Assembly (NCBI RefSeq): GCF_016595525.1
Contig: NZ_JAENII010000002.1
Coordinates: 62,001 to 126,000, forward strand
Reading direction: 5' to 3'
DNA from: Haloferula rosea
GTDB taxonomy: Bacteria; Verrucomicrobiota; Verrucomicrobiia; Verrucomicrobiales; Akkermansiaceae
DNA: 64,000 nt
Below are positions 10,950 to 60,737 of this stretch, one piece after another (position 1 is the first letter of the stretch; each line of letters opens with the position of its first letter). The position numbers and the translations under genes were made by a program. The notes below the pieces were generated by a model. The model searched no databases and was not told the DNA's origin. It saw only the letters and a list, made by a program, of their open reading frames with translations.

Positions 10950-10954
10950 GAGCC

Positions 10955-35159: not shown

Positions 35160-36611
35160 TTACGGACTCTTCCGATGACTTGGGGTGTTCACGATCCTCT
35201 GCAGTTCCTTCCTCAACCGACTGACCAGTTCGGGGTGGGCGGTGACTTGGTTAACCTGCTCAGATGAGTCCTTGATCATGTCGTAGAGCTGCTCTTCAGG
35301 CTCGTCCAATGCCTTGGGAGGGTCCTCAGAAAAGCCACCTGAACCAGCCTTCGAGATGAATTTCCAGCGGCCGGAGCGGATGATCATGGTATCCTTTCGT
35401 GCCGCCTTCATGACCAGCGCTGGCCGCACCGATTGATTGGCGTCTTGGCTACCATCAAGCAGGGGCAGAAAGCTGAAGCTGTCCGGACCTGCTTCGTCTG
35501 GAAGGCTGAGACCAAGAATGTCGGAGAACGTTGCCAATAGATCGGTGAAGCCGATCGTTTGTGAACATTGCGAGTTCGGGTTCACTGCTCCAGGCCAGCG
35601 GACCAGGAAGGGCACTCGGTGTCCTCCTTCCCAGGCGTCACCCTTCATGCCCCGAAGGCCTCCAACGGCGTCGTGATCGAACTTATCGACATCCTTCTCA
35701 TACCAAACCGGGCCATTGTCTGACGTGAAAAGGATCAAGGAATCGTCAACCATGTCGGCCTTGTGCAACGCGTCGAATACGCGTCCGACCTCATGATCCA
35801 CCATCGCGACAAAGTCGCCGTAAAGTCCGGCACCGCTCGAACCGATGAACTGTTCGTCAGGAAGCCAAGGTGTGTGTGGTCCCGTCAGGGCGAGGTAAAG
35901 GAAGAGTGGCTTGCGTTCGGGTGGTTCGCTGGCTGCATGCCTGCTGATGATGCTGCAGGCATTATCGGTGAGAGTGGTCAACACGGTCGATAGATCCAGT
36001 CCCGGAGCACAGCCACCTTCCCGCCAGAACTTGCCCTGTATCGGCGACCAGTCTTTCGATCTGCTTGCCCGGATGTCGTCCGTCGGCGGAGCGACCGGCC
36101 TGTCGTTACGGATGAAGAAATAGGGTGGAATGTCGGTGGATGCCCTGAGTCCGAAGAACTCGTCGAATCCGCAGTCGACCGGACCACCGGGAAGAGGTCG
36201 GTCGTAGCCTTGTTCTTCAAATCCGAGATGCCACTTTCCGACCATACTGGTGTGGTATCCGTGCTCTTTGAGCAGGCTCGCGAGGGTCATCTGACCCGTC
36301 TCGATCAAGGCATGCTTTGGCCATCTGGTGACGTCTGTGCGAAAGGGGTAGCGGCCAGTCATCAAGCCGTAGCGTGAGGGGTGACAGAGTGGGCCGGCAG
36401 CGTGGGCATCCGTGAACCTCATTCCCTCTTTGGCGAGACGGTCGATGTGAGGTGTCGGGATCTTCGATCGAGGATTGTAGCAACCCACGTCGCCGTAGCC
36501 CATGTCGTCTGCGAGAATGACGATGATGTTTGGTGATCGGGCGGTGACCGTGGACTCTGCGAGGAATATCAGCACAAGAAGCCGCAGAGCCTGAGGGACG
36601 AAAAAGTTCAT
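35160..36611 (-). CDS. Exported arylsulfatase-type sulfatase (S1)
   Basis: A 483-aa formylglycine sulfatase with a signal peptide (about 1-24). Metal-binding Asp35-Asp36 stands in Leu-Ala-Asp-Asp-Met-Gly-Tyr. The modified Cys76 is in Cys-His-Pro-Ser-Arg, followed by Leu-Met-Thr-Gly-Arg. Further landmarks are Gly-Lys-Trp-His-Leu-Gly and Phe-Thr-Ser-Asp-Asn-Gly-Pro. It removes sulfate esters, probably from an algal or host glycan, and needs an anaerobic (anSME) or FGE maturase not found here. It is the last gene of the minus-strand glycan operon, 37 bp after another sulfatase. Confidence 0.94.
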   Translation of the reverse strand: MNFFVPQALRLLVLIFLAESTVTARSPNIIVILADDMGYGDVGCYNPRSKIPTPHIDRLAKEGMRFTDAHAAGPLCHPSRYGLMTGRYPFRTDVTRWPKHALIETGQMTLASLLKEHGYHTSMVGKWHLGFEEQGYDRPLPGGPVDCGFDEFFGLRASTDIPPYFFIRNDRPVAPPTDDIRASRSKDWSPIQGKFWREGGCAPGLDLSTVLTTLTDNACSIISRHAASEPPERKPLFLYLALTGPHTPWLPDEQFIGSSGAGLYGDFVAMVDHEVGRVFDALHKADMVDDSLILFTSDNGPVWYEKDVDKFDHDAVGGLRGMKGDAWEGGHRVPFLVRWPGAVNPNSQCSQTIGFTDLLATFSDILGLSLPDEAGPDSFSFLPLLDGSQDANQSVRPALVMKAARKDTMIIRSGRWKFISKAGSGGFSEDPPKALDEPEEQLYDMIKDSSEQVNQVTAHPELVSRLRKELQRIVNTPSHRKSP

Positions 36612-36648
36612 GCTTTGAAGTGGTGGGAAGTTGCTTGATTGGCACGAG

Positions 36649-38121
36649 CTAGCGTTTTTCGGGGAAACCCTTTGCGAGTAGTGCCTTCAAGCGCTTCACA
36701 AGTTCCGCACGCTCCGGGTTGCCACCGAGGTTGTAATACTCTCCCGAGTCGTCCTGATGATCATAGAGTTCGATTCCCTTTTCACCGTGCGGACCCCATT
36801 CCGTGTAACGCCAGCGGGCGGTTCGCACACTCCTTCCGACGGTGCTTCCCCGATTGACCTGAGAGTAGGCGGCGGCTTTGCCCGGTTTGCTTGGATCGTC
36901 CAGAACCGGGCGCAAGCTCTGACCCGAAAGTTTATGCGGAGGCTCCAGACCGGCGTAATCGATCAGGGTTGGATAAAGGTCGACGAACTCGATGAGTGCT
37001 TCAGTTGGTTCTCCCATTCCCTTTGCCCCCGGAACCCATGCGATCATCGGTGCACGCGCGCCGAGTTCGTGAACGGTGACCTTATTCCACCACCCGTGCT
37101 CTCCGAGATGGTAGCCATGATCTCCGATGAGAATCACCATTGTATTGCTCCATAGATCCAAACGGTCCAAGGACTCGAAGACTCTTCCAAGTTGTGCGTC
37201 GGCGAAGCTGACACAGGCCTGATAGGCACGCTTGAACTCCCGGCGCTCCTTGGCAGTGAAGGAAGAGAAGTCTTTAGCATTGGGGATGGCGTATTGGACT
37301 TGCCGGCTCTTGTCGCTTGGCTCTTCGGGGAGTTTGGTCGAATCCTCGGGATAGAGGTCGAAGTATTTTGCTGGTGCGATGAACGGGTCGTGAGGCTTGT
37401 GCAATCCAAGTGCGAGGAAGAACGGTTGACCATGGCGTTCTTCGAGAATCCGCAGAGCCTCGCTGGTGTTCAGCCCATCGGCCTGACCATTGTCATCACC
37501 CTCAGCAGCGAGCCATTTGCACCAAGGGAGTCGCCCGTTTGTAAGGTCCCTGCCGACACCGGTCTTGCCGATCTTCGGGGCATTCCGCATCCCGTCGTAG
37601 AAATGATCCCATGAGAGTGGATCTTCAAAAAGCACGGGACGGGCTTCCTCATCCTGACCCAGGTGGAAGATCTTGCCGATTCCTGCCGTGTAGTAGCCGT
37701 TCTGACGAAAGAGCTGAGGCAGGCTGACGGTGTCGGGCAGTTTGGTTCTGAAGGGGACCTTGTTCGAAACAACGCCGCTCTCATCCGGTCGCAGGCCTGA
37801 GAGAAATGATGAACGGCTCGGATTGCAAACCGGGTACTGGGCGTAGGCACGATGGCAAAGCATTCCCATCGCGGCGAGTCGGTCGAAGTTGGGCGAAACC
37901 ACCTCGCTGACACCATAGCATGCAAGTTCGGGCCTCAGATCATCCACCACGATGAAGAGGACGTTGAGCGGCTCATCGGTCTTCTCTGTTTCAACAGCGT
38001 GAGTAGATAGGGTGACGCTGAAAGCCAGTGCGATGATCGATCCCGTGGTTCTGATCGCTTTGATTGGCCATGGGGTCGTCTCAGGGAGGCTGGGGAGCCG
38101 GGTGCCGGATGGTCGTTTCAT
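36649..38121 (-). CDS. Exported iduronate-2-sulfatase-like sulfatase (S1)
   Basis: A 490-aa sulfatase with a late-starting hydrophobic leader (about residues 22-42). Asp60-Asp61 is in Val-Val-Asp-Asp-Leu-Arg-Pro. The catalytic Cys99 stands in Val-Cys-Asn-Pro-Ser-Arg-Ser-Ser. The Val-Asp-Asp-Leu-Arg-Pro-Glu-Leu start, the Gly-Lys-Ile-Phe-His segment and the Leu-Gly-Leu-His-Lys-Pro-His segment are typical of the iduronate-2-sulfatase-like branch. Members of that branch act on several sulfated sugars, so this does not prove iduronate. It lies within the operon, 60 bp after the GH71/99-like gene. Confidence 0.92.
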   Translation of the reverse strand: MKRPSGTRLPSLPETTPWPIKAIRTTGSIIALAFSVTLSTHAVETEKTDEPLNVLFIVVDDLRPELACYGVSEVVSPNFDRLAAMGMLCHRAYAQYPVCNPSRSSFLSGLRPDESGVVSNKVPFRTKLPDTVSLPQLFRQNGYYTAGIGKIFHLGQDEEARPVLFEDPLSWDHFYDGMRNAPKIGKTGVGRDLTNGRLPWCKWLAAEGDDNGQADGLNTSEALRILEERHGQPFFLALGLHKPHDPFIAPAKYFDLYPEDSTKLPEEPSDKSRQVQYAIPNAKDFSSFTAKERREFKRAYQACVSFADAQLGRVFESLDRLDLWSNTMVILIGDHGYHLGEHGWWNKVTVHELGARAPMIAWVPGAKGMGEPTEALIEFVDLYPTLIDYAGLEPPHKLSGQSLRPVLDDPSKPGKAAAYSQVNRGSTVGRSVRTARWRYTEWGPHGEKGIELYDHQDDSGEYYNLGGNPERAELVKRLKALLAKGFPEKR

Positions 38122-38181: not shown

Positions 38182-39483
38182 CTACTCAGGTATGGCCTTG
38201 CTTGGGCTGATTTCGCCACGGATGAGTTGACCTGCTTTTTCGGCAAGCCGCAGGTAGTGATCGGATGGAAGGCCTTCCATGCCCAGCAGCCTTGCGCCAT
38301 TGCCGGTGGGGGGAGTATCAGTGCATTTGAAGATAGCGGTTCCCTCGTCGACTTCGTCAAACATGGCGACATAGATCATGCTGGCCCCTGCTTCCCGGCA
38401 TGCCAGGACCTGATCCCACATGAACCTTCCCTTAAGGCGGGGGATGGCGTTCAGTTCTCCCTTGTTCTGATTGTGCCAACTGAATCCGGGGAAGACGACA
38501 GGCATGTAGGTGATGCTGTGTTCCTTGGCCCAGATGATGTCCGGTGCCCAGTGGTTCTTGGCATGCCTCTGCACGCCTTTGAGATTACCGAACCTTCCGA
38601 CACTCCAAGGACTGAGGATATCCGCCAATAGGAGCACTTCGTGAAGTCTGTCGTCGGTGAGAGCATCGCGTTCTCTGGTGCGCCAGCCAGTGGGAATGCC
38701 CAGCATGATGCTGCAGCCATCGGCTTTCAGTTTACGTATCAATCGTTCACCTGCCTGGAGGTCAGGTCGACGTTTCGCGTCGTCCTTGAAACCTACGCCC
38801 CAAATCGTGACCAAGGGCTTGCCTTCATGATGCTGATAGGCCGGATCATCGGTGATCTCCATTCTCTGACGCAGCATTCTCCAGTCGGAGAATACGGTCT
38901 CCACTGCTCCTTCACGGATCCCGCTGAGGTCATACATCACCGAGTAGGTCCGGCCATGACGGTTCGCGCCTTCGCGGGCGCTCGACAAGACCATGTCCTT
39001 GTGGTGGCGCAGATCAGCGTGATTGAGCCCATTGGCAAATCGCTGGATGAACGCACCATCAATCCCATATTGCTGCATCCATTGGAAATGCCGCAGGACT
39101 GTTCGCCGGTCATAGGAAGAGAACACCGTTGCCGGCGTCCCCCGATCATCGAGGAAACCCGTCTCATAGAGCTCGTCATCGGCGAACTCCGAGACGTCAG
39201 GCCACATGTCGACGCCGATGTTATCTGGAGCAAATGGCTGCCTTCGGTTCTTGGCCCAATGGGTCCATCCGAGGTCGGCGCCGTCGCCCTCGCAGTTGAA
39301 CCATCCTTGATAGCCGGTCATTACCTTGCCTTCAAGGGTCGTCGGGTCCGTGCCGCGGATGCTTGGCCCCGTGTAGGGTTGAAGAATCCCGGTATCGGCC
39401 TCCTTTGAGAAAGTGTTGAGCGCTAGCAGGCATGTCATCCCAACTGCGAAGAGCGGATTCATGCTGGAGTTGGATGCCTTCAT
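38182..39483 (-). CDS. Exported GH71/99-like glycoside hydrolase
   Basis: A 433-aa protein from the ATG at 39483, with a leader (about residues 9-27). The barrel region shows Gly-Tyr-Gln-Gly-Trp-Phe, Trp-Pro-Asp-Val-Ser-Glu, His-Phe-Gln-Trp-Met-Gln-Gln-Tyr-Gly-Ile-Asp-Gly, Met-Tyr-Asp-Leu-Ser-Gly and Phe-Pro-Gly-Phe-Ser-Trp. This is the GH71/99-like clan, whose characterised GH99 members are endo-alpha-mannosidases and mannanases and GH71 members alpha-1,3-glucanases. Product specificity is not readable. It is a close paralogue of the C-terminal domain of the fusion protein at 56392-59220, which supports both acting on the same glycan. Confidence 0.87.
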   Translation of the reverse strand: MKASNSSMNPLFAVGMTCLLALNTFSKEADTGILQPYTGPSIRGTDPTTLEGKVMTGYQGWFNCEGDGADLGWTHWAKNRRQPFAPDNIGVDMWPDVSEFADDELYETGFLDDRGTPATVFSSYDRRTVLRHFQWMQQYGIDGAFIQRFANGLNHADLRHHKDMVLSSAREGANRHGRTYSVMYDLSGIREGAVETVFSDWRMLRQRMEITDDPAYQHHEGKPLVTIWGVGFKDDAKRRPDLQAGERLIRKLKADGCSIMLGIPTGWRTRERDALTDDRLHEVLLLADILSPWSVGRFGNLKGVQRHAKNHWAPDIIWAKEHSITYMPVVFPGFSWHNQNKGELNAIPRLKGRFMWDQVLACREAGASMIYVAMFDEVDEGTAIFKCTDTPPTGNGARLLGMEGLPSDHYLRLAEKAGQLIRGEISPSKAIPE

Positions 39484-39551
39484 CGACGTGGGAGGCTGGT
39501 TCTCATCAGGGTCGTGGCGCCAGATGGCTGGAAGGGTGCCATGGCTTTGAG

Positions 39552-40910
39552 TCATGTGAGGTCGGGTTCCCAGCCAGTGCGATATTCGCGTTTCAGAAAT
39601 GCCCGCACTTCGGGGAGCCCACGTGCTTCCATACGCTCCATGTCCCAATCGATTTTCTTTCCGACCCGCACCGCGAGGTTTCCAGCAAGGACCATTTCGG
39701 TAAGTGGTCCGGCGTGGTCCTCGAAGTTTGAGACCGGTTTGGGGCCTTCCCCACGGATTGCACGGCAGAGTTCCTGGGTGGGTCCACCTTTCACACGGGC
39801 GTAGACCTTCTTGATCGTTCGAGCCTTTTTCTTCAGTTCAGCAGGGAAAAGAATGGGTGCCGTGTTGCAGTAGGCGTCGTTGAAGAAGATCGTACCCTCG
39901 GTGCCGACGAAGACCTGACCGAACTCGCTGTTCAGTTTGAGGTCTTTCGGAAGACCGGGGGGACGCACGAATTCCTTGTCCGTATTCGGATCGGCGACTC
40001 CGTCTTGCCAGATGATCTTGACGGGTCCGCGTTCTCCTTTCGTGGGAAAGTCGTAGACGATGGTGGCACGCTTCGGTGCCATCGTTTCATCAAACTCCGA
40101 TACTTTGCTGGCTTCGACCACGAAGTCTCCTTTCAAGTCGAGTGCCCAGAAGGCCGAGTTCATGCTGTGGCAGCCGATGTCACCGAGGGCCCCGCATCCG
40201 TAGTCCCAGAAGCCCCGCCATTTGAACGGATGGATTTCCGGGGTGTAGGGACGCTCGGTAGCGCAGCTTCCCTGCCATACCTCCCAGTTGATTGTGTCAG
40301 GCACCGGGCTTCCGGGGAAAGTCAGGCCCGTCCCTTGGGGCCAGATCGGACGGTTGGTCCAGTAGTAAACCTCCTTCACTTCGCCGATCAGTCCGGCTTC
40401 AATCCATTCCCGGAGCAAGCGGGTTCCCTGCATGGTTGCCCCTTGGTTTCCCATGACGGTCAGAACACCCTTCTCCTTGGCGAATTTCGCCAGTGCGCGG
40501 GTTTCCCAAAGGGTGTTGCACATTGGTTTTTGGACCATGACGGGCTTGCCATGCTTGATTGCTTCGCAGGCGATCGGGAAGTGCATGTGATCCGGGGTGG
40601 ATACGGTCACCACGTCGATCTGATCAGCAACTTCAGCGAACATTTCCCGGTAGTCCGAGAAGTAGGGTGCTTCAGGAAATCTGGTAATCGCTTTCCGGGC
40701 CTGATTCTTGTCGACATCGCAAAGGAAGCTCACGCGATTGCCTGGGGCGATTTCGGAAATGTCACTCCATCCTTTGCCTCCGCAACCAATGGCGGCGACA
40801 TGGAGTTCGTTGAGCTTTTTTTCCTGCCCTAGCAGGAGGTTCGGTGCGAATGCGCTGCCAGCGAGTGCGGTGGCGGATCTGATGAAGTTTCGTCGGGATG
40901 GATTCTGCAT
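39552..40910 (-). CDS. Tat-exported Gfo/Idh/MocA-family oxidoreductase of the glycan operon
   Basis: A 452-aa protein with a Tat signal (Ser5-Arg6-Arg7-Asn-Phe-Ile, hydrophobic to about residue 28). The NAD(P)-binding domain begins Val-Ala-Ala-Ile-Gly-Cys-Gly-Gly-Lys-Gly. The motif Val-Gln-Lys-Pro-Met-Cys is the Glu-Lys-Pro signature with Gln in place of Glu. The alpha/beta domain has Tyr-Gly-Cys-Gly-Ala-Leu-Gly-Asp-Ile-Gly-Cys-His. Placement between the lyase-like and hydrolase genes suggests it modifies a sugar released from the same glycan, in the periplasm. It is not closely similar to the copy at 32303. Confidence 0.9.
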   Translation of the reverse strand: MQNPSRRNFIRSATALAGSAFAPNLLLGQEKKLNELHVAAIGCGGKGWSDISEIAPGNRVSFLCDVDKNQARKAITRFPEAPYFSDYREMFAEVADQIDVVTVSTPDHMHFPIACEAIKHGKPVMVQKPMCNTLWETRALAKFAKEKGVLTVMGNQGATMQGTRLLREWIEAGLIGEVKEVYYWTNRPIWPQGTGLTFPGSPVPDTINWEVWQGSCATERPYTPEIHPFKWRGFWDYGCGALGDIGCHSMNSAFWALDLKGDFVVEASKVSEFDETMAPKRATIVYDFPTKGERGPVKIIWQDGVADPNTDKEFVRPPGLPKDLKLNSEFGQVFVGTEGTIFFNDAYCNTAPILFPAELKKKARTIKKVYARVKGGPTQELCRAIRGEGPKPVSNFEDHAGPLTEMVLAGNLAVRVGKKIDWDMERMEARGLPEVRAFLKREYRTGWEPDLT

Positions 40911-47257: not shown

Positions 47258-49543
47258 CTAGTCCGGGCTCTCCTCCCAGTTCCGGCCTTCGTCGGCGATG
47301 GTGTCGAGGTGTTTCATGAAGCCGAGGCTTCGGGCATGCGGGATATCCGGAGTCCACAGTCGTCGGGGTGGTGCGTTACCCCATGCAGGACGGTTCATGC
47401 CGACGTAGTGGTCGAACAGGACAGGGGGTTTTGCCTGGTGAGCGGACGAGTGTTCACACCGTGTGGGGTCGAAGGATTCGTCGAACCGGAGGATGAAGTG
47501 AAAGTCGTGCCAACCTTGGTCGGAAAAGCGTCTTGAGAAGGCTGGTTTCAGTTCGGAGTCTCCGGTCCATGCCATCAACGGTGAACGTAGTAGAGTGAAC
47601 TGCCATGTATCGCCGTCGAGTCGGGAGCTGTAGGTATCGGGTGTATGAAGTGATAGGGAAGCCCCTGGCATTTGGACGCTGTCCCAGCCGCAGAATGGCA
47701 TTTCGTCGACGCCGGGCTTGCGGGTAACATGGCCGCCTGCCAGCCCGCTGTTCCAAGTGTTTGGGTAAGCTTGGAGGTGGATGGGGAGTTGCAGCAGCTT
47801 GTGCCGCTCCGAGAAGACGACATGGAGGTTGATGTGAACCTCGGGTTTCCCCTCGTATACGGTTACCGCGATTCGGATCTTGGAGTCACCCAGTGTCTGG
47901 TCGGCAAACATTCGGGCCCGGATCGGTCCCTCGTCTTCAAGTGTCCATTCCAGGTCGGTCAGATTGCCAGCAAGAGCTTCTTCAAATGCCGTATTGTGGA
48001 AGACCCAGGTATCTCCCTGATCTTCGCGCAGCTGAAGGCTTATGCCTTCCTTGCCCAGGAATTCCTTTCCGTTCCATTTCAACGAGCGGATTCCGTTCGG
48101 AGACAACTCGGCCGACAGCTTGCCATTGCTGAGGCAGAGGCCTTGTAGTCTGACCGGATCCACTGGAGGCGGGATCTCCCCTTCGGCGGCATCCAGCAGT
48201 TTCAGGACCCGGGACCCTTTGGCAGAGACCTCCAGCGGCAGGACGGCCCGGTGCATCATGGGGCCGGTGTTCGGTTCCGATGTAATCAATTGGTAGGGGA
48301 CCGGGTTCCCTTCCTCGTCGGCGAACCAACGGGTTCCCCAATCATCGAAATCAATGAACGGTTCGCATTCCACATGGCCGTCGAACGAGTGGTCGGAGCC
48401 GTTTAGGATTACCAGGCGCTGCACGTCCTCGCAAGGTAGGTTCGCGCGTGCATGACGGCGCGAGATGCGGACGATCTCCTCTTCGCCAATAATCCCGGCC
48501 CGGCCCTGCATGTGACGGGTCGAAACGTAGGAGGACGGGACACTTGTGCCGGCCAGAATGTCGTGGAACTGCGTGAATGCGAGATCGTGCCAGGCAGTGT
48601 TGATTCGCTCGATCGAGTCGTGGGTGGATTTGCTGCCGGTGCAGAATGCGTGAGCCAACTCCTCGGCCTGTTCAAGCAACCTCTCAGTGCGGTGTTGAAC
48701 CTGCTTCACATCGTGCATCACGCTGTAGCAACCGGGGAAGGTTTTCTGGAGTTCGTAGTCCACGATGGGAACGAGATCCCTCTTTGCCTCGGCCGCGGAG
48801 TAGAACTCGTCCACAGTGCTGAAGCGGAGTTCGACATCGCCGAATGAGTTCTGATGTTTCAACAGCCATTCAATGTTCGCTTTCGTCGGTCCACCTCCGT
48901 GGTTCCCAAGGCCATAGAACATCATGGTGTGTCCAAGGGCGGGGTCGGCTGCCTTGACGCTAAGATCGATCTGTCCCTCAAGGTCATCACTACGGGTGAC
49001 GTAGGCTGGTGCGATCCGGAATCCCAGGATCTCGGAACCACCGGAACCACGCCATCGAAAGGTCTGGGCCGGCAGCTTGACCTGACTCTCATTCGGACGA
49101 TGAAAGACATATCCGCGATAACCGACGTCGCACAGAATGTCAGGAAGGGTGGCTGGATGGCCAAAGGTGTCGACGTTATAGCCGATTCTCGGGCTCACTC
49201 CGAAACGGTCCTTGAAGTAGCGCTGCCCGAGTTCGATCTGCTTTTTCCACCCTGCTGCTGTCGGGAGGTTGGCATCGGGTTGAATCAGTTGCCCTCCAGC
49301 GATCGACCAGCGCCCGGATTCGATCAGGGCTCGGACCTCGTTGAAGAGCCCGGGATCCAGTTCTTCCACCCATTGGTAGAGCCATGATTCTCCACGTGTG
49401 TAGCGGAACTCGGGATATTCGTGGCAGCGATCGACCGCAGAGCGAAATGTGGCGAGTGCTTCATCTACACCTGCCTGCCAATTCCATAGCCAGATCGGGT
49501 CGAGGTGTGCATTTGCGATAAGGTGGACGACCATTTTGCTCAT
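47258..49543 (-). CDS. GH38 alpha-mannosidase, cytoplasmic
   Basis: A 761-aa family GH38 enzyme that removes alpha-linked mannose from oligosaccharides. The N-terminal catalytic domain has zinc ligands His13 and Asp15 in Asn-Ala-His-Leu-Asp-Pro-Ile-Trp-Leu-Trp. The catalytic nucleophile and third ligand is Asp125 in Tyr-Asn-Val-Asp-Thr-Phe-Gly-His-Pro, and the helical domain carries Gln-Phe-His-Asp-Ile-Leu-Ala-Gly-Thr. No signal peptide is present, so imported oligosaccharides would be cut in the cytoplasm. It is first in the seven-gene minus-strand unit and faces the divergent regulatory region with an operator candidate about 90 bp ahead. Confidence 0.95.
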   Translation of the reverse strand: MSKMVVHLIANAHLDPIWLWNWQAGVDEALATFRSAVDRCHEYPEFRYTRGESWLYQWVEELDPGLFNEVRALIESGRWSIAGGQLIQPDANLPTAAGWKKQIELGQRYFKDRFGVSPRIGYNVDTFGHPATLPDILCDVGYRGYVFHRPNESQVKLPAQTFRWRGSGGSEILGFRIAPAYVTRSDDLEGQIDLSVKAADPALGHTMMFYGLGNHGGGPTKANIEWLLKHQNSFGDVELRFSTVDEFYSAAEAKRDLVPIVDYELQKTFPGCYSVMHDVKQVQHRTERLLEQAEELAHAFCTGSKSTHDSIERINTAWHDLAFTQFHDILAGTSVPSSYVSTRHMQGRAGIIGEEEIVRISRRHARANLPCEDVQRLVILNGSDHSFDGHVECEPFIDFDDWGTRWFADEEGNPVPYQLITSEPNTGPMMHRAVLPLEVSAKGSRVLKLLDAAEGEIPPPVDPVRLQGLCLSNGKLSAELSPNGIRSLKWNGKEFLGKEGISLQLREDQGDTWVFHNTAFEEALAGNLTDLEWTLEDEGPIRARMFADQTLGDSKIRIAVTVYEGKPEVHINLHVVFSERHKLLQLPIHLQAYPNTWNSGLAGGHVTRKPGVDEMPFCGWDSVQMPGASLSLHTPDTYSSRLDGDTWQFTLLRSPLMAWTGDSELKPAFSRRFSDQGWHDFHFILRFDESFDPTRCEHSSAHQAKPPVLFDHYVGMNRPAWGNAPPRRLWTPDIPHARSLGFMKHLDTIADEGRNWEESPD

Positions 49544-50094: not shown

Positions 50095-52965
50095 ATGAAA
50101 CTACCCAATAACCTGAAGTCCTGGGCCCTGCCCACCATGGCCATGTCGCTGGCCTTTCCTGCAGTGAGCTACGCAGCTCAGCCAAGTGATACCGAATGGA
50201 ACGCAGGGGGCGACGGGAACTGGGCGGATTCGACATGGACCGGGGTGATTCCCACCACCGGCAGTTTGGCGGGAATTCTGACGGGAGACACCGTGACCGT
50301 GGCTGCCCCTGCTGCATCTGATCTTGAGCAACTGGTAATCGCTGGATCTTCGACTCTGTTGGTGAATTCCTCGATTGGGATCGTTGGTACTGACAAGATC
50401 GACAACGACCCGGATCCAGATACTCCAGCGACAGGTCTGTTCGTCAGCGCCGGAACGTTGAGTATCAATTCAGGAGGTTCCTTGAGTGTAAACACCGGGG
50501 GAGAGTTCAAGGTCGCCGAGTCGAACACGGCGAATCTCAATCTGTCCGCGGGTGCAGCAATCACCACGGATAGGTTGGTGATTCTGGGGCTTGAGGGCGG
50601 AGCACTCGGGACTCTGACACAGACAGACGGAACCTTGACTCACACAGGCACTGAGTTCCGCATCGGAAACTTTGATGGAGTAGGGGTATACGACATCAGT
50701 GGGGGAACGGCCTCAATCAACACCCTGAAGGTCGGTTATGCAGGTCTTGGGAACGGAAGTTTCAATGTTTCCGGTGCATCGACCAATGTCACATTGAATG
50801 GAACAACGAGCATTGGGTGGGACTCCCGAAGCAGTGGTTCGATCAGTGTTTCCGACGGCACGGTCAACCTCAACCGCATTCGAATTGGTGTCGCTGGGGG
50901 AGTGCCCACTAGCGGAACGAGGACCGCGGCGTTCACTCAATCCGGCGGAACTGTGGACTTCAGCGACCGGATCGACATTGGCAGCAGTACGCCTTCCGCG
51001 ATGTTGAACTCCTACAGTATTTCCGGCGGTTCCCTCACTGTGACCAACACGATCTCCGTGGGTGCAGGAGCTGAGGCGAACGGGACCTTCAATGTGTCGG
51101 GAACCGGTGATGCTGAAGCCCGCGTGATCATCGTAGCACCCGAGGCCAACAGCACGGGCAATGTGGTCGTGACCGGGGGTGGACTCACTGTGGTTGATGA
51201 AATTACCGTGGGCCCGAATCCAAGCCCGACTGCGTCGGCCAGTGTGACGGTGAGCGATGACGGGTTTCTGGAAACAGACAATCTACGACTTCGAAATGGA
51301 TCGGTGACACAAAGCGGCGAGTTCAGCGAAGTCTTCATTCCCGCTGGAGGGGGTGGGTTTTTCGTGGGACTTGATACAACCGGGGATGCGACCTACAGCA
51401 TGGAGGATGGCACGCTGACCAGCGAAACGCGGCTGAGGATTGGAGTGGGTGCGACTGGCACGAACCTCTTCGATCAGACCGGAGGTGAAGTGATCATCAA
51501 TAACCGTCTTGATGTCGTTGAAAACGGAGGGGCAAGCAGCACCTACCAGATATCAGGAGGAACATTGAGCACCACAGGGGACGCCTTCATCGGTGCGTTT
51601 GGCTCTGGGACCGGCTTGTTCGACGTCAGTGGTTCGGCGGACGTCATGATTGGAGGAAACATGGCGATCGGGAGAAACAGCACGGTCGGTCTCGTCAATC
51701 TAACCAGTGGTGTGGTCACCGCAAATGAGATCATCCTGGGAGAGAATGCTGCCGGTGGCAGCATGCTGGATGTCAGCGGTGACGCGTCACTCAGTGGCAC
51801 TTCGTTGAAACTTCAGAACGGAACGCTGAACCAATCAGACATTGACAGCCTCGTGGACATCACCGGCGAGCTGCGCATGGGCGCGGACGGCTCTGTCGAT
51901 GCGACCTACAACATGCAGGGCGGAATGCTCGTCACAGGGAGCCGGATGCATTTCTCTTTCGGTGCGACGCCGCGGAACGTGACTTTCAATCAGACGGGTG
52001 GCGATGTGGAGATCGGTGCACGCATTGACATCGGTGAGGTCGCCGGCCCAACCAACTCTTATGACATATCCGGTGGAAGTCTCTCCCTCACGGGTGGTGA
52101 CAGCCGGATCCTGGTTGGTGCTTTTGGTGATGGAACGGGATCGCTCAATGTCAGTGGAACCGCCGAAGTCGATGCTGGGTCAATCGTGCTTGGTGAGAGC
52201 CCGACTGCCGTGGGAACGGTGAATCTGGATGGTGGAGTCCTGATCACCGATCTCATCAAGACGGGAGGCGCGGCTGCAGGAACGCAGACCCTCAATCTCA
52301 ATGGGGGAACGATTCGGGCTGCTTCCAACGTGACCGACCTCATCTCGGGCAATCTTCCAAGCAACCTCCTTGCAGGAGGAGTGACTTTCGATGTCCCTGA
52401 TGCTTCTTGGTCGGTGATCACGAACAGCGTGATGACCGGGGTTGGTGGTCTGACGAAGATTGGTCCGGGCAAGCTGACGGTCACCGGGGTGCAGGCCTAT
52501 ACCGGAGACACCCGGGTGGAGGAAGGTGTCCTTTGTATCGAGGAGCCATTCTTGGATTCGGGCAGTAATGTCTACCTCTACACCGGAACCGAACTGGATC
52601 TTGTGTTTGATGCGTCCATGACGATCGGCACGCTTTTCATTGATGATGTTGCCCAGGCGCCTGGAACCTTCAATTCCTCGAATACTCCGCTGATCACGGG
52701 GCTGGGGGAGCTTGAGTCCACCACAGGGGGCACCTCGGCGGACCCGGAGATCGTCTCGATCACCCGGGTCGGTTCGACGGTCACCATTGTGATGACCGGA
52801 GAACCCAACACGACCTACGTATGTCAGAGTTCCCTCGACCTGAGTGGTTTCGCGCCCATCGCGACCACACCTTCCACCGTGACCACCGATGGCAATGGTG
52901 ACGCCATATTCACCGTCGATGCGACGGAAGACCGGAAGTTCTACGTGGTTGAGGAAGCTCCATGA
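50095..52965 (+). CDS. Exported beta-repeat surface protein (autotransporter-associated-repeat type)
   Basis: A 956-aa protein with a signal peptide (about 1-27, Val-Ser-Tyr-Ala-Ala). Residues about 110-740 form many short Gly/Thr/Ser-rich repeats of roughly 45-50 residues, each with a Tyr-x-Ile-Ser-Gly-Gly-x-Leu or Phe-Asn-Val-Ser-Gly phrase, which points to a long beta-solenoid. Near residues 780-810 is one autotransporter-associated beta-strand repeat (Gly-Gly-Leu-Thr-Lys-Ile-Gly-Pro-Gly-Lys-Leu, Tyr-Thr-Gly-Asp-Thr). The C-terminal domain (from about 880) is Ig-like. No enzymatic motif and no translocator barrel are present. It heads the plus-strand arm of the locus, behind an operator candidate, so it is probably a glycan-binding or adhesive surface protein (inference). 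Confidence 0.83.
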   Translation: MKLPNNLKSWALPTMAMSLAFPAVSYAAQPSDTEWNAGGDGNWADSTWTGVIPTTGSLAGILTGDTVTVAAPAASDLEQLVIAGSSTLLVNSSIGIVGTDKIDNDPDPDTPATGLFVSAGTLSINSGGSLSVNTGGEFKVAESNTANLNLSAGAAITTDRLVILGLEGGALGTLTQTDGTLTHTGTEFRIGNFDGVGVYDISGGTASINTLKVGYAGLGNGSFNVSGASTNVTLNGTTSIGWDSRSSGSISVSDGTVNLNRIRIGVAGGVPTSGTRTAAFTQSGGTVDFSDRIDIGSSTPSAMLNSYSISGGSLTVTNTISVGAGAEANGTFNVSGTGDAEARVIIVAPEANSTGNVVVTGGGLTVVDEITVGPNPSPTASASVTVSDDGFLETDNLRLRNGSVTQSGEFSEVFIPAGGGGFFVGLDTTGDATYSMEDGTLTSETRLRIGVGATGTNLFDQTGGEVIINNRLDVVENGGASSTYQISGGTLSTTGDAFIGAFGSGTGLFDVSGSADVMIGGNMAIGRNSTVGLVNLTSGVVTANEIILGENAAGGSMLDVSGDASLSGTSLKLQNGTLNQSDIDSLVDITGELRMGADGSVDATYNMQGGMLVTGSRMHFSFGATPRNVTFNQTGGDVEIGARIDIGEVAGPTNSYDISGGSLSLTGGDSRILVGAFGDGTGSLNVSGTAEVDAGSIVLGESPTAVGTVNLDGGVLITDLIKTGGAAAGTQTLNLNGGTIRAASNVTDLISGNLPSNLLAGGVTFDVPDASWSVITNSVMTGVGGLTKIGPGKLTVTGVQAYTGDTRVEEGVLCIEEPFLDSGSNVYLYTGTELDLVFDASMTIGTLFIDDVAQAPGTFNSSNTPLITGLGELESTTGGTSADPEIVSITRVGSTVTIVMTGEPNTTYVCQSSLDLSGFAPIATTPSTVTTDGNGDAIFTVDATEDRKFYVVEEAP

Positions 52966-53133: not shown

Positions 53134-54159
53134 ATGGCTGTTGGACGAGGTGGCACAAAGCTCAAGGACATTGCTGATTTGGTCGGATGTTCGTTGGCAA
53201 CCGTCTCGAACGCCATCAATGGTCGAGGGCGGATGAGTGAAGACATGCGCAGGGAGATCCTCGCGAAATGTGCTGAGCTCAATTTCGTGCCGAATTCGGC
53301 AGGACGGAGCCTCCGCCTGCAGCGCGCCGATGCCGTCGGCGTCATCTACGCTCCGTCTTTTGCGGAACTGTTTGGCAATATTTTCTATGCTCGAATCATG
53401 GAGGGCTTGTCCGAGACCTTTGGTGAGGCGGGTCTGGATCTCATCCTCGGCAACCGAAAGGACTCAGACGGATTGCCTTCGATCGTCAGGCAAGGGAAGG
53501 TTGATGCGCTCGTGGTCCTGGCGGGGGTTTTTGAAGCAGATGCCTATGAGAGTTTGCGCAACTGTCCGGTTCCCGTGTGCATGGTCGATGGGCATGTCGG
53601 TGCACTCGAAGCAGACGCAGTGACCAGTGACGGTTTCGGTGGGGGGCGGTTGGTCGCTGAGTACCTGGTTCGCGAAGGTCATCAGAACGTCCGTATGGTG
53701 GCCTACAAGAATCCGCTGTACAATATCGAGCAACGGATTGCGGGTTTCCTATCGGGGCTTCGGGCCTCCGGTGTGGAGGCCAGGGAAGACGATGTGGTCA
53801 TCCGGATTTCAGACAACGCCGAGGCAGGCGAAAGGGTTCTGGACAGTCTCGAGTCAGGTGAGGCTCCAACGGCTGTCTTCGCAGTCAACGACACCCTTGC
53901 AGAATACCTGGCAACCGAGTTGCAGAAGCGCGGGAAAAACGTTCCTGGTGACGTTTCCTTGGTTGGATTTGACGATGACCCGATCGCACGTCGATGCGAG
54001 CCTGCTTTGACCACCGTCGGAATGGACAAGCGGGTATTTGGATCGATCAGCGCGGGTCTTGTGCTCGAAAGGTTGGCGAAACCGGAAAAGCCATTGGTTC
54101 ATCATGTACAACCGACCCGGATGGTGATTCGTGATTCGGTCAGCAACCTCGGGGGGTGA
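53134..54159 (+). CDS. LacI-family transcriptional regulator of the glycan locus
   Basis: A 341-aa regulator. The N-terminal helix-turn-helix (about residues 4-27) reads Leu-Lys-Asp-Ile-Ala-Asp-Leu-Val-Gly-Cys-Ser-Leu-Ala-Thr-Val-Ser-Asn-Ala-Ile. The hinge with Arg-Ser-Leu-Arg follows at about 55. A periplasmic-binding-protein-like effector domain occupies 62-335, with Ile-Tyr-Ala-Pro-Ser-Phe and Val-Gly-Phe-Asp-Asp-Asp-Pro. Such proteins bind a sugar and release AT-rich operators with a central CG, like the AAACG elements here. It lies between the surface protein and symporter genes, so it probably controls the locus locally. The effector sugar is unknown. Confidence 0.93.
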   Translation: MAVGRGGTKLKDIADLVGCSLATVSNAINGRGRMSEDMRREILAKCAELNFVPNSAGRSLRLQRADAVGVIYAPSFAELFGNIFYARIMEGLSETFGEAGLDLILGNRKDSDGLPSIVRQGKVDALVVLAGVFEADAYESLRNCPVPVCMVDGHVGALEADAVTSDGFGGGRLVAEYLVREGHQNVRMVAYKNPLYNIEQRIAGFLSGLRASGVEAREDDVVIRISDNAEAGERVLDSLESGEAPTAVFAVNDTLAEYLATELQKRGKNVPGDVSLVGFDDDPIARRCEPALTTVGMDKRVFGSISAGLVLERLAKPEKPLVHHVQPTRMVIRDSVSNLGG

Positions 54160-54431: not shown

Positions 54432-56399
54432 ATGGGAGCAGCTGGCTACTTTGGAACGGTCGACTACGTGTTCATGGGACTTTATGTCCTGATCTTGATC
54501 TTCCTTGGGTTCTATTTGAAACGACTCGCTTCCCGCAGTCTGGACAACTACATCTGCGGTGGGAAGAACATCCCGTGGTGGGCCATGGGAATTTCGGGGA
54601 TGGCCAGCTTTCTGGATCTTGCTGGTACTGCGGTCATCGTCTCCTTTCTTTTCCTGCTTGGCCCGCAAGGGTTGTTTGTGGAGTTCCGCGGTGGTGCGGT
54701 GTTGGTTCTTCCTTTCATGATGCTATGGACCGGGAAGTGGCACCGCCGTTCGGGTTGCCTCACCGGGGCGCAGTGGAACATCTATCGATTCGGTGATTGC
54801 TGGGGAGGCCGGGCATCACAGTTGATGGGAGTCATCGCGACTGTCCTGACGACGATCGGAATGCTTGCGTATTTGATCATTGGAGCGGGTATTTTCCTTT
54901 CGACCTTCCTCCCATATCCACCCGAACACTGTTCTCTGGCACTTCTGGTGATGGCCACGCTCTACACGATGATGTCGGGATTCTACGGGGTGATCTTCAC
55001 CGATTTGTTTCAGGTGTGCATCATTCTTGCGGCGGTGATTTACATTTCCTTCAAGGCGTTCACCGGAATCGGTGACGTTAGTGAGATCAGTCAGGTCGCC
55101 AGAGAGGTTACGGGCAATCCTGATTGGATCAGTGGGATTCCCAAGTGGAACGCTTGGGTGCCGGAGGGATATGAAGTCTACAAGCATCTCATCATCTTTG
55201 CCTCGTTCTACCTTGTGCGGACGGTTGTCGCCGGCATCGGGACCGGGGCGGATCCCCGGTACTTCGGTGCCAAGAACGACCGGGAATGTGGCAAGCTATC
55301 GATGCTATGGACCGTTCTGATGACCGTTCGTTGGCCGATGATGATCGGGATTGCCGTCATGGGGCTCTATCTAGTGAAGGATCTTCTCCCGGAACAGGAG
55401 AAGATGGGAGAAGCCACGGAGTTGATTCAGGCGGCTTACCCGGACACCTCAAAACCCGGATGGGGTGCTCTGATCTCAGATATTTCCAATAGACCTGAGA
55501 ACCACGATCCGGAGTTGGTCGCGGGCTTGCAGGCTCTGTTGGGAGCGGAGAAGTGGGCCGAGAAGATGAACCTTCTGAGTTTCGAGGGAACGGTGAATCC
55601 CGAAAAAATTCTTTCTGCGGTTCTGATGATTTCCGTCGCTGAAGGCATGCGTGGCATTCTGGTGATCGCGCTTGTCGCTGCGGCTCTCTCGACGTTCGGA
55701 AGTTGGGTGAATCTCGCGACGGGGCAGTTCGTCAATGACTTCTACAAGAAGTGGATGAGGCCCAAGGCGCAGACCAAGGAACTGATCTTCGCAAGTTGGG
55801 GGACGGTGATCGGGATCGTCACATTCAGCTTCTTGTTCTCACGAACCCTGGACAGCATCAATGACATCTGGGGGTGGATGATGATGGGATTCGGGGCAGG
55901 ATTCCTGGTCCCCAGTTTCCTCAGGCTCTATTGGTGGCGATTCAATGGTAGCGGTAGCGCGATCGGCACGCTTCTTGGAATCATGGCAGCGATCATCCAG
56001 CGCCTGCTCTGGCCCGATCTGAATGAGGTCTGGCAGTTCGTTTTCGTGCTTTCCGTCGGGTTGGTCAGTTCCGTGACTGCAGCACTGCTCACCGAGCCGA
56101 CTGATCCCGCGGTGCTAAAGAAGATGTATCTCGAGACTCGGCCCTTTGGGGTCTGGGGTCACCTCAAGGACACTTTGTCGCCCGAGGAACGGGAGAAAAC
56201 AAGTCGGGAGCACCGGGATGACATCCGGGCTCTGCCTTTTGCCTTGGTGTGGCAGACGACTCTGTTTCTCGCACCGATGCTTTTCATTATTCACAATTGG
56301 AAGGGATTTGCGGGGGCTTCCATGATCTGTATAGTTGCGTCTGCCGCGCTCTACTTTCTTTGGTTCAGGAAACAGCCTGAAGGGAACTACTATGACTGA
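54432..56399 (+). CDS. Sodium/solute symporter (SSS family)
   Basis: A 655-aa membrane protein with about 13-14 hydrophobic helices in the SSS/LeuT arrangement. It begins with Tyr-Val-Phe-Met-Gly-Leu-Tyr and the family's [16 protein letters not shown] segment. It shows [14 protein letters not shown] in helix 2, around the sodium site. Such carriers import monosaccharides and other small solutes with sodium. Its place in the locus makes it the likely sugar importer. The next gene overlaps its end by 8 bp. Confidence 0.93.
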
Positions 56400-59220
56400 T
56401 GGAGCGGACTTGAACGGTAATTCGCCCGGCAGGGTGATGAGATGGGTCATCTTCGCCTTGGTTGCGGTAGGCTGGCGATCACTTCTTGGTGCGGGTCAGG
56501 TTTTGGTCCCGCCAAGCGGTGATCTGCAGGCGGTATTGGATCAGGGCGACGACCTCCTCCTCGAGCAGCAAGGTTTATATGAGCTTTCAGAAGCTCTGGA
56601 ATTCAAGAAAGAGGGGCAGAGTATCCTTACTGCCGGGGCGACCCATCCCAGCGAGTTCGCGACGCTTCGGCTCGCGGATCCCGGGCAGACATGTCTCGTC
56701 ATGGCGGATGGTGTGAAGGGGGCGAAGATCGCCCATGTGATCCTCGATGGTGCCCGGTATGAGCTCTCGGGTCCTCCTCCGAGATCGGATTTTGGAAAGG
56801 ACATGGCGCTTGCGTTCTTTGGTGGTCAGGGAGGTGATGGGCAGGTGGTTCGGGAGTGTGTGTTCCTGAACTCCCGAAGTTGTTCCACACTGAAGGTCCA
56901 TGAAGGGGCGTCAGGGGTTCTGGTAGAGAACAACCTCATTTTCGGAGCGGGTTCGGATTGCCGGGGAAACGGGCGCGCAGTGTCGGAGGGGCGGATCCAC
57001 TGGAGTGGCGGCATTACCTTTGCTGCCCGTGACTCGATTGTTCGAAGCAACCTTATCATTGATCCGACAAATGCGGGGATCGTTCTATTCGGCAGCCCGG
57101 GCACAACCGTCGAGGGCAATGTGGTTGCGGCGGTGTCCCGAGAGTCTCTGGGAGGCATCAGTTTGGTAGATTCAATTGATTTCTATCGCTTGGCGAAAGA
57201 CGGAACGGACTGCCGAGGCTTGGTGGTGAAGAACAATCAGGTCGAGGCATTGGGCGCCAGAGTCCACATGGGGTTTCCGATCGGAGCGCCTCAGTGGGCC
57301 CCGGAGAAGCGTGGTCGTTTCCTGATCGGTGGTAGTGTTGTCGGAAACACGATGTCTGGTGGTGCCGCCGGGTATGGATTTGTAGCTCATACGGTCAAGG
57401 GGGGGACGATTGAAGGGAACCGTAGCCTCGCGAGTTACTCGGGGCTTTCGGATGGCCTGGCAGCGACCAACAGGCCTCACGAACCGACTGGATTTGTATA
57501 TGATCCCCAGACAGTCCTGGATTGCAGGCTTCAGGATGATTTCATTGCCTGCGATCCGCACATCGATCACCTCCTTCGATGCAATTACGGTCCCATGGAT
57601 GATCAGGGTCGAAGGGTTTACCCGTATGGCAAGGAAGAGGCTGAGGCTGTGGTGAGGGCGGCCTATCGGGAGATCCTAGGTCGTGAGGCCGATCCTGATG
57701 GGCTTGTTTCACGGATCGTCGCTTTGCAAGAGAACCAACTGAATGCCGACACACTCCGGCGGATCCTGATGGGAAGTGAAGAGTTCAAGCAACGCCATGG
57801 GTTCGTTCCACCTGATGATCTCCAACTCTTTCGGGGCGATCTGTGGTTGTCTCTCTGCGATTCCATCATTGCGGATGGGGAGGGGTGGCCAGCAGCGAAA
57901 GCAATCTATCAGAAGGCGAAGAGCCTGCTTGTTCAGGAGCCGAGTGCTCGCCGAAAGATGGTGTCAGCACGGGCAAGCACGCTGACGGGGCGGGTCATGT
58001 GTGGATACCAGGGGTGGTTCCGGGCGGAGGGCGATGGAACCGGGTTGGGTTGGAAGCATTACCGGAATCCGACGAGCCACCAGTTCAGGCCGGGCCATGC
58101 CGGGATTGAGTACTGGCCTGACATGAGTGAGTTGGCGGACCATGAGAAGTTTGAAACTGCATTTCGTCACTCCAATGGATCGCCGGCGCATGTGTTCAGT
58201 TCGGACGTCAAGGATACCGTCGTGAGGCACTTCAAGTGGATGCGAGACTATGGTATCGATGGCGTGTTCGTGCAGCGCTTTGTCACCGAGGTGACGGGGC
58301 GGGATGGTAGACGGATCGACGCGAATACCCGTTCTTGTGACCGCGTGCTGAAACACTGCCGTGAGGGTGCCAATCGCTACGACCGCACCTACGCAGTGAT
58401 GTATGACCTGACCGGCATGCCATCCGGGCATACAGCAGCGATCATCGAGGATTGGCGACATCTCGTGCGTGGCATGGGGATCACAAGGGGTGCTCGTGAT
58501 AAGGCCTACCAACGGCATGGGGGCAAACCGGTGGTCGCCATCTGGGGTGTCGGTTTTGCCGATGGGCGTCGGTATGGGTCAAAGGACTGTGAGGAGTTGA
58601 TCGACTTCCTCAAGAACGATCCGGAGTGTGGTGGCGTCACGGTGATGTTGGGGACTCCGACGGGGTGGCGAACCGGCGATAGGGATGCAGGCCCATTCGA
58701 CGAGTGGGCTCCGATCTATCGCTCGGCGGACATCATTTCCCCTTGGACCGTCGGTCGTTTCGGAGGTCAGGAGTCCGCACGCACCTATGCGGCGGGGCGG
58801 GCGAAGGCGGATCGCGAATGGTGTGAGTCGGAAGGGAAGGAGTTCATGCCGGTCGTTTTTCCCGGGTTCGGTTGGTCGAACCTGAAGAAGGGGACCAAGG
58901 AGAACCCGAATGCCTTCATTGATCGGGAGGGAGGTCGCTTCCTGTGGGCGCAGTATGAATCCCTCGTGTCGCAGGCGGGAGCGACGATGGTCTATCAGGC
59001 GATGTTCGACGAATTGGATGAGGGAACCCAGATTTTCAAGGTCAGCAATGACCCTCCGGTCGGGGAGAGCCGCTTCGAGTCCTACGAAGATCTACCATCC
59101 GACCACTACCTATGGCTGGTGGGCGAAGCGACCCGCATGGTCCGTCGGGAAATGCCACCGAGCCGGGATCTCCCGGTTCGCCCCGTTGATCGTGGGAAAC
59201 CGGGTGCTCCGGCCGAATAG
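56392..59220 (+). CDS. Fusion protein: beta-helix, DUF4214 and GH71/99-like hydrolase
   Basis: A 942-aa protein from the ATG at 56392, overlapping the symporter stop by 8 bp. It has a leader or anchor (about residues 17-35) and a right-handed beta-helix region (about 40-400, with Val-Ile-Leu-Asp-Gly-Ala and [10 protein letters not shown]). A DUF4214-like helical segment lies at about 418-470 ([14 protein letters not shown], Met-Gly-Ser-Glu-Glu-Phe). A GH71/99-like catalytic domain follows (about 526-925, Gly-Tyr-Gln-Gly-Trp-Phe, [11 protein letters not shown], Phe-Pro-Gly-Phe-Gly-Trp). The hydrolase part is a close paralogue of the 38182-39483 enzyme. The combination is unusual, and I know no precedent. 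Confidence 0.85.
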
Positions 59221-59297: not shown

Positions 59298-60737
59298 CTA
59301 GCGCTTGTTCTGGCCGCGCTGGGGGGCGAGCGGGAGCTCGTCCTGGTAGGATTTCAGACGGCGCAGCATCTTGGTACGAAGCTCCTTGTATTCAGGGTTG
59401 TTGGCGAGATTCACGAGTTCGTCGGGATCCTTTTCCAGGTCATAGAGGCATTCGTATGGCCCGTCCTTCTCTTCGTGATAGACGGCGAACTTGTATCTTT
59501 CACCTCGGACACCGCGCCAGTCATTGAATGACTTGAATTTGTGTTCGACGAAGATGTCTGTGCGCCAGTCTGGCGCCGATTCCCCCTCAATGAGGGGAAC
59601 GAGCGAAAGGCCTTGGTGGACTTCGGAGGGCTTGATGCCGGCAAAGTCGCTGAACGTGGGGGCGAAGTCGATGTTGCTGACGAGCTGGTCGATCACGCGA
59701 CCTCGTTTGTCGTCGGCGAGCCGTGGATCGTAGATGATGAGCGGGACATTGAGCGATTGCTCGTAGTGGTTCCATTTCCCGGCGGTGCCGCGGTCTCCGA
59801 GCATGAAGCCGTTGTCGGCCGAATAGATGACGATGGTGTTTTCATCGAGTCCCTTGTCTTCAAGGGTCTTGAGGATGCGGGCAATGGCGTTGTCGATTCC
59901 GCTGATCATGCGGTAGTAGGCACGGATGTTGGTTTGGTACTTCTCCGGAGTGTCCCAGCGCCAGTAGTAGCGAAGGGTGTTGAGATTGGACTTCTCCCTC
60001 AGAAACGGAGGCATCGCCTTGTTGAATTTTTCGTTCGCGAGGCGTGGAGCGGGGATGGTGATGTCCTCGTACATGCCGTCGGTGGATTCCGGCCACTGGA
60101 AGTGATACCCCGGTCGCTTGTCTCCATCCTCGGCGTGGGAGGCATTGAAACTGACGGACATGCAGAACGGCTTGTCCTTCGGGTTGGACTCGATGAATTC
60201 GATGGCAGCGTCCGCACACAGATCGGTCTCATGGCGCTTCGATCCGTCGGGCATCTTGTGCAGATAGGGAGTGCGGTTGATGCCCTTGAAAAAGTCGAAC
60301 TCGGGTTGCAGGCCCGGCCGGGCGAACTTCATGCCGTATTTTCCGGCAAATCCAATGCGGTATCCGGCGTCCTTGAGGAGGGCTGGATAGCTGGTCTTGA
60401 TATACTCGGCCGGGACGGGGAGCTCTCCGAAGTTGTAACCGTGGCTGTGCTGGGTCAGGCCGCTGAAGATCGAGGCACGGCTTGCGGCGCAGATCGGGAC
60501 TTGGCAGAACGAATTCGTGAAGCGGACGCCTTCGGCAGCCAGCTTGTCGAGAGTCGGGGTCTTGATCAGATCGTTGCCATAGCAGCCGAGCACGTCGCTG
60601 CGTTGGTCGTCGGCCAGAAGAAAGATGATGTTTGGCGGAGTGCCCTTGGTCGCGGCTGAAGAGGTGGCGGTCGCCAAGAGGGCAGCGGCGCCCACAAGCG
60701 GGGCGAAAATGGTGAACAGGGAAGGTTTCTTATTCAT
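59298..60737 (-). CDS. Exported sulfatase with Cys-Ala-Ala-Ser-Arg active site (S1)
   Basis: A 479-aa sulfatase with a signal peptide (about 1-29). Metal ligands Asp43-Asp44 are in Leu-Ala-Asp-Asp-Gln-Arg-Ser-Asp. The formylglycine Cys83 stands in Ile-Cys-Ala-Ala-Ser-Arg-Ala-Ser, where Ala takes the usual Pro position, as is tolerated in some sulfatases. Gly-Lys-Tyr-Gly-Met and Tyr-Ser-Ala-Asp-Asn-Gly-Phe follow. It is convergent with the fusion gene (77-bp gap) and downstream of the esterase gene on the same strand. Confidence 0.92.
   Translation of the reverse strand: MNKKPSLFTIFAPLVGAAALLATATSSAATKGTPPNIIFLLADDQRSDVLGCYGNDLIKTPTLDKLAAEGVRFTNSFCQVPICAASRASIFSGLTQHSHGYNFGELPVPAEYIKTSYPALLKDAGYRIGFAGKYGMKFARPGLQPEFDFFKGINRTPYLHKMPDGSKRHETDLCADAAIEFIESNPKDKPFCMSVSFNASHAEDGDKRPGYHFQWPESTDGMYEDITIPAPRLANEKFNKAMPPFLREKSNLNTLRYYWRWDTPEKYQTNIRAYYRMISGIDNAIARILKTLEDKGLDENTIVIYSADNGFMLGDRGTAGKWNHYEQSLNVPLIIYDPRLADDKRGRVIDQLVSNIDFAPTFSDFAGIKPSEVHQGLSLVPLIEGESAPDWRTDIFVEHKFKSFNDWRGVRGERYKFAVYHEEKDGPYECLYDLEKDPDELVNLANNPEYKELRTKMLRRLKSYQDELPLAPQRGQNKR

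Follow-up and report, generated by a model that had tools for sequence, protein, structure and literature searches.

What does a β-helix bring to an enzyme to which it is fused, and which part of such a protein does the cutting? The question is raised by a gene of Haloferula rosea (Verrucomicrobiota; Akkermansiaceae) that joins in one polypeptide a right-handed parallel β-helix, a helical domain of the DUF4214 type and a barrel resembling that of glycoside hydrolase (GH) family 99. The gene lies within a stretch of 64,000 nucleotides of contig NZ_JAENII010000002.1, hereafter the window. We propose that its product is a secreted glycan-degrading enzyme in which the GH99-like barrel is the working part and the β-helix together with the DUF4214-type domain forms a partner module, a sodium symporter, sulfatases and a GH38 α-mannosidase completing the pathway; to this proposal as a whole we give an even chance. 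The gene and its parts, as seen in sequence and in an AlphaFold2 (AF2) model, are:

56392..59220, +: fusion gene, 942 amino acids (aa), with signal-like N-terminus, β-helix, DUF4214-like and GH99-like parts (open frame, Pfam, AF2, fold search)
56392..56496, +: likely secretion signal, residues 1-35, predicted helix 13-31 (by eye and AF2)
56497..57549, +: right-handed parallel β-helix, residues 36-386 (Pfam, AF2, fold search)
57553..57939, +: DUF4214/phycobilisome-linker-type helical domain, residues 388-516 (profiles, AF2, homology)
57982..59166, +: GH99-like (β/α)8 catalytic domain, residues 531-925 (Pfam, AF2, fold search)
59011..59022, +: E-L-D-E motif with E874 and E877, aligned with EWHE, the catalytic motif of GH99 (alignments)

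The fused protein and its GH99-like barrel

The frame at 56392-59220 runs uninterrupted from ATG to stop (942 aa, or 961 aa if counted from an upstream TTG). As the frame is clean and the same fusion recurs in six other genomes, the fusion is real, and the frameshift or assembly error that the preliminary description had named as its possible undoing is ruled out. That description had also placed the β-helix, DUF4214 and GH99-type domains in this order, which agrees with the fold searches, the family profiles and the AF2 model; the latter, made from a 50-sequence alignment, has a mean predicted local distance difference test score of 84.7 and shows β-strand rungs at residues 36-386, helices at 388-513 and the barrel at 535-917. 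With the single fusion sequence all three Pfam matches fall under the curated cut-offs (Beta_helix, E 1.3e-4, 22 bits against 25.9; GH99, PF16317, E 6e-6, 26 bits against 33; DUF4214, PF13946, E 0.23, 12 bits against 23.2). For the β-helix and DUF4214 the profile evidence stood at the level of the family, not of the single copy: among 11 modules, as we call the β-helix plus DUF4214 unit, all match Beta_helix at E <=1 (best 3.4e-7), and seven match DUF4214 at the same threshold, the best value of 0.0072 staying under the cut-off. The N-terminus has no cysteine in residues 1-60 and is signal-like, unlike some relatives that look lipoprotein-like by eye, and the protein is likely secreted.

The assignment of the barrel is carried by fold and motif. 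The GH99 structure 4ad5 aligns over 319 residues with Z 33.4 and a root-mean-square deviation of 2.6, the 28 best ranks of a second fold comparison are all GH99 chains, and in Foldseek GH99 (E 9.4e-15) comes out ahead of GH71 (E 7.4e-7). E874 and E877 align with the GH99 stretch FNEWHEGTQI and are kept in all 48 barrel rows of one alignment (A3) and in 22 of 22 of another (A5). The motif is reported as EWHE in GH99 and DYGE in GH71 (PMC13421300); the window barrel carries the E-x-x-E pair as ELDE, and the GH71 DYGE is not present in its place. As the barrel stays under the PF16317 cut-off, also in a whole-genome search (27.2 bits), we name it GH99-like and do not file it as GH99. It shares with BtGH99, BxGH99 and human MANEA the (β/α)8 fold and the two glutamates at the same place, and differs from GH99 in its 17% identity (that of the 4ad5 alignment), its Pfam score and its fusion to a β-helix and DUF4214. 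GH99 enzymes use a retaining mechanism. The C-terminal barrel would be the catalytic part and, by analogy, may act with retention on an α-mannosidic bond (or a similar α-linkage) inside the chain, through E874 and E877. Other partners of the barrel were seen elsewhere: a Bacteroidales protein (L061:3785-6514) has a GH99-like domain fused to GH43, which may explain the 'xylosidase' names of relatives, and in one genus (L121:691-2646, L122:1886-3889) a xylose-isomerase-like barrel (AP_endonuc_2) is joined to the GH99-like domain.

The middle domain is accepted as DUF4214-type on the strength of three things together: homology to L106, the linker profile and the linker fold. L106 holds three DUF4214 stretches (66.5 bits, E 2.3e-18), and the window domain aligns to it with 45% identity over 60 aa. 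The family profile finds phycobilisome-linker chains at a whole-sequence E of 4.6e-9, which is a sum over several weak repeats; in Foldseek, the domain modelled alone has phycobilisome entries at ranks 1-29, each weak (best E 0.12), and in structural comparison (VIA) Z is at most 4.5. Pfam gave no DUF4214 match at E <=0.001 in the genome itself, as the copy lies under the cut-off. The domain is thus like DUF4214 and the phycobilisome linkers in profile and fold, whereas here it stands as a single copy between two enzyme-type domains, where it may serve as a helical spacer between β-helix and barrel. Our data do not bear out the view of the preliminary description that DUF4214 marks a surface or S-layer protein: no S-layer domain is found among Pfam/NCBIfam matches at E <=1, the three DUF4214 proteins checked pair with βγ-crystallin-like domains, and the solved relatives are phycobilisome linkers. 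For anchoring to an S-layer or surface through DUF4214 we found no support, the Pfam/NCBIfam matches of the fusion protein including no anchoring domain. L101-L104, L106 and L110 encode small, seemingly secreted proteins that carry between one and three DUF4214-type copies; the βγ-crystallin-like domains are those of L102, L103 and L106, the three that were Pfam-scanned.

The β-helix and its replaced residues

The best solved match of the β-helix is 8jaz, an alginate epimerase/lyase (Z 27.3), followed by AlgE epimerases, the polysaccharide lyase RbmB, GH28 polygalacturonases, other β-helix hydrolases and phage tailspikes, and in the fold search no single family is clearly ahead of the rest. 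AlyGC, which we take to belong to polysaccharide lyase family 6, was found by sequence profile alone and weakly (E 0.077). Over about residues 32-388 the window protein shares the right-handed β-helix with lyases and C5-epimerases (8jaz, AlgE4/AlgE6, RbmB; Z 22.6-27.3), from which it differs in being 13-16% identical. Outside the asparagine ladder, 27 polar or aromatic residues are near-invariant across 20 modules (at most one exception each), and in the DSSP string of the model R162/W164, W204/D206, D224/D227, R250/E251 and R290/H292 occupy the same turn of successive rungs. Such near-invariance suggests catalysis, and the β-helix of the relatives is probably an enzyme, with the barrel's linkage or an adjacent one as its target.

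The window copy departs from its relatives at five otherwise universal positions (W164C, D206G, D227N, A235S and Y274C), compared with 0-2 such departures in each of the 19 other sequences and none in the window barrel. Four of the replaced, otherwise invariant positions lie within 56881..57213 on the forward strand (alignment of modules):

56881-56883, +: W164C
57007-57009, +: D206G
57070-57072, +: D227N
57211-57213, +: Y274C

W164, D206, D227 and Y274 are kept even in two distant modules, L141 (32%) and L169 of Streptomyces (29%); of the positions compared, 13 polar or aromatic ones outside the ladder are retained in both, and the window has lost four of the 13, keeping R162, W204, D224, R250, Y265 and W302. 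The lone rows L113, L115, L117 and L176, which are fair controls, show 0-1 departures each. Decay of the whole domain is ruled out, as divergence is not raised and specific residues alone are lost. The best reading of the alignment is therefore a constrained domain with a changed centre, whose activity may be lost or altered: an active GH99-like domain would be carried by a β-helix whose catalysis is gone or changed. As four kept residues are gone, the window β-helix most likely now only binds and positions the chain or has changed its specificity. The earlier phrase that the protein 'holds and cuts' its polysaccharide is plausible for this copy, but in the relatives the β-helix has the look of a separate enzyme.

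Several points weigh against the loss of activity. The departure count was made after looking and not predicted beforehand, and it is biased, near-twin rows (L008/L114, L175/L177) being unable to show unique departures. The ratio of β-helix to GH divergence is 1.2-1.5 in pairs with the window and 0.8-2.3 in others; the domain as a whole does not evolve unusually fast, so that it may have stayed active. The location of W164, D206, D227 and Y274 in a putative active site is judged from the DSSP register of the model, not from coordinates.

Fused, split and stand-alone forms

The domain combination, first thought to be new, is not confined to the window: we count eight fused proteins in seven genomes, this one included, the seven others belonging to six genomes of Kiritimatiellia and Phycisphaerae. 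In the searched literature (DUF4214; GH99/GH71 with the host groups), as far as the sources were available, we found no description of a β-helix/DUF4214/GH99-like architecture. Proteins named 'glycoside hydrolase family 71/99-like' in RefSeq have the same barrel (43% identity to a Persicobacter protein so named), whereas among the related loci sampled (80 of 84 kept, L001-L080) just three, L001, L002 and L024, match through both halves; in L008 the module is a separate gene. L001 carries two fused copies in tandem and a stand-alone module. The L024 gene is truncated at its 5' end by a contig boundary, the missing part probably being L142 on another contig. Further fusions were found in Kiritimatiellia (L170, L171, L172). 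With a one-sequence query, module matches at E <1e-100 were obtained in 5 of the 387 genomes searched from the window's phylum, and at the same threshold in 6 of 240 Kiritimatiellia and 2 of 294 Planctomycetota, these samples partly overlapping. Within the window's family the protein has matches in 35 of 97 genomes and the module in two (this genome, which has one, and G085); in that sample the fused form is confined to this genome.

Two Lentisphaera genomes carry the GH99-like enzyme, the symporter (61-62% identical) and the module (45-47%) as three separate genes side by side (L114; L008, of Lentisphaera marina, and L116, which are one and the same stretch), with symporter and module frames overlapping by 17 bp as listed. 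The β-helix and DUF4214-type domain would thus be a conserved partner module of the barrel, separate in Lentisphaera and fused here and in six other genomes; being fused, both parts may reach the same polymer chain together. A tree of 32 GH rows groups the window barrel with five of six stand-alone enzymes (from L003-L007 and L009, of which L009 falls outside), L082 and L086 (support 100/98), and the module tree groups the window module with six fused modules of Kiritimatiellia and one stand-alone module (100/100). In neither half do the fused forms make one clade, a point that speaks against our proposal. A single origin of the fusion was rejected by approximately unbiased (AU) tests on both halves (p-AU 7e-6 for GH, 2e-6 for the module, 0.04 for the first 11 modules); repeated gain and gain with losses both fit this outcome.

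We regard the fusion as an uncommon variant built of known parts, its one unusual feature being the replaced β-helix residues. As the pair is fused, split among adjacent genes, or represented in a similar operon by the enzyme without the module, nature supplies a test of the contribution that a fused β-helix makes. The small conserved β-helix family is a candidate carbohydrate-active enzyme, for which the window variant without four core residues is a built-in control. More tentatively, and with some doubt, the module may be an undescribed carbohydrate-active enzyme family of Verrucomicrobiota, Kiritimatiellota and Planctomycetota, a partner of GH99-like and elsewhere of GH2 enzymes, repeatedly fused and split, and here turned into a non-catalytic guide. 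A stand-alone module directly follows a GH2 gene in L113 (GH2 2655-6362, itself preceded by GH38) and L117 (GH2 9547-12405). In L141:4213-6255 a CBM_4_9 domain lies between the β-helix and DUF4214-like parts; in L140, whose contig starts inside the module, the module is followed by Ig-like and carbohydrate-binding domains. L169:2650-4191, an unannotated distant β-helix relative (29-30%), lies on a Streptomyces linear plasmid typed mobilizable.

Neighbouring genes, glycan target and other readings

The genes around the fusion that bear on its role are:

53134..54159, +: LacI-family regulator, conserved alongside the symporter and the GH99-like gene (Pfam, locus comparison)
54432..56399, +: sodium:solute symporter (SSS/SSF), 655 aa, overlapping the fusion gene by 8 bp (Pfam, NCBIfam)
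59298..60737, -: sulfatase, convergent neighbour, with CAASR motif (Pfam)
47258..49543, -: GH38 α-mannosidase, no signal sequence by eye (neighbour annotation)
38182..39648, -: second, stand-alone GH99-like enzyme of a different tree clade (search and GH tree)
35160..38121, -: two sulfatase genes, 35160-36611 and 36649-38121 (neighbour annotation)

The overlap of 8 bp with the importer gene, already described, is confirmed at 56392-56399 provided that ATG 56392 is the start; an alternative in-frame ATG at 56437 would abolish it, but ATG 56392 has the better upstream sequence (AAGGGA, judged by eye). In the window, L001, L170, L171 and L172 a symporter gene immediately precedes the fusion; in L002 it is found two genes further upstream. 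An SSS symporter is present in 11 of the 80 loci and stands beside a separate enzyme in L003-L009. Six of these (L003, L004, L005, L006, L007, L009) have the symporter (81-84%) directly followed by a stand-alone enzyme (62-69%), with sulfatases and without the module; the LacI gene (63-69%) is found in five (L003, L004, L006, L007, L009), the contig of L005 starting within the symporter gene. L003, L004, L006 and L007 have a sulfatase between LacI and symporter, where the window has none. As the symporter-enzyme pairing is conserved in these six stand-alone loci and in four fused ones (L001, L170-L172), the link to uptake that the preliminary description drew is stronger than the overlap alone would make it, and short products would be imported by the symporter.

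Judged from the neighbours, the likeliest target is a sulfated α-mannose-containing glycan, whose breakdown the sulfatases and the GH38 α-mannosidase would finish. The window GH38 gene lies 6.8 kb upstream of the fusion gene on the other strand, and the second GH99-like gene adjoins the two sulfatases. GH38 is in the same gene run as the fusion in L170, L171, L172 and L142 and adjoins the split operon in L114 and L116. As a constant neighbour GH38 was not borne out: in a survey of L001-L080 to which five GH38 queries were added, it occurs in 3 of 80 loci (L008, L046, L057). A system of similar layout is PbSulf1-GH195 of Polaribacter, in which a domain distantly related to GH99 is reportedly fused to a sulfatase, the two being separate genes in Ochrovirga, and which acts with sulfatases on sulfated α-1,3-mannan (PMC13063451). 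The two systems share a GH99-related domain that is fused to its partner in one organism and split in another; they differ in that the partner there is a sulfatase and not a β-helix, and in secretion by the type IX system. In two Bacteroidota searches for a sulfatase-fused relative, neither of the two long frames inspected by eye (937 and 1314 aa) was one.

Other observations tell against a mannan target. No GH38 gene is found in the six loci closest to the window, nor in the examined parts of L001 and L002. In Flavobacteriia, α-mannan loci with GH38 are described as devoid of sulfatases and the sulfatase-rich ones have GH92 (PMC6298971), so the pairing of GH38 and sulfatases seen here is not the described one. 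Our literature search found no activity data for this clade, and for the Prevotella '71/99-like' enzyme PmGH99 it is reported that none could be detected when whole yeast cells were the substrate, and that its low activity elsewhere pointed to α-glucan; it carries DYGE, not E-x-x-E (PMC13421300). It is accordingly possible, and deserves some weight, that the barrel is no mannanase but has an α-glucan or a different α-linked glycan as substrate, with the neighbouring GH38 and sulfatase genes serving other steps: PmGH99 is of the same superfamily of unclear specificity, relatives of the barrel are joined to GH43 or an isomerase-like barrel, and the nearest loci do without GH38. A GH99-like motif in place of the GH71 one, and the company of GH38 in L170, L171, L172 and L142, argue for mannan instead.

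Two other readings concern the β-helix. One is a true two-enzyme fusion, in which a β-helix with a changed site still works as a lyase, epimerase or hydrolase and both domains cut the same polymer. Many of the nearest folds (8jaz, AlgE, RbmB, GH28) are enzymes, the six retained residues and the normal overall constraint fit such a role, and the module has carbohydrate-binding domains attached to it in L141 and, to judge from the truncated contig, in L140, as is common for catalytic modules; but this copy, alone among those examined, no longer has two aspartates, one tyrosine and one tryptophan, and we consider this reading rather unlikely. The other, in line with the preliminary description, is that β-helix and DUF4214 were never enzymatic and form a binding or display module fixing the enzyme to polymer or cell surface. 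β-helices can be adhesins, one of which, PfbA, is among the Foldseek matches, and the DUF4214 relatives are assembly linkers; against this stand the near-invariant residues of the 20 modules, 13 of them also in the two modules at 29-32%, and the absence of a surface-anchoring domain from the Pfam/NCBIfam matches, and we consider it unlikely.

Further upstream on the forward strand (50095-52965) the window encodes a protein of 956 aa that contains a passenger-associated-transport repeat; L009 has a homologue (38-40%) in the vicinity of its LacI gene too.

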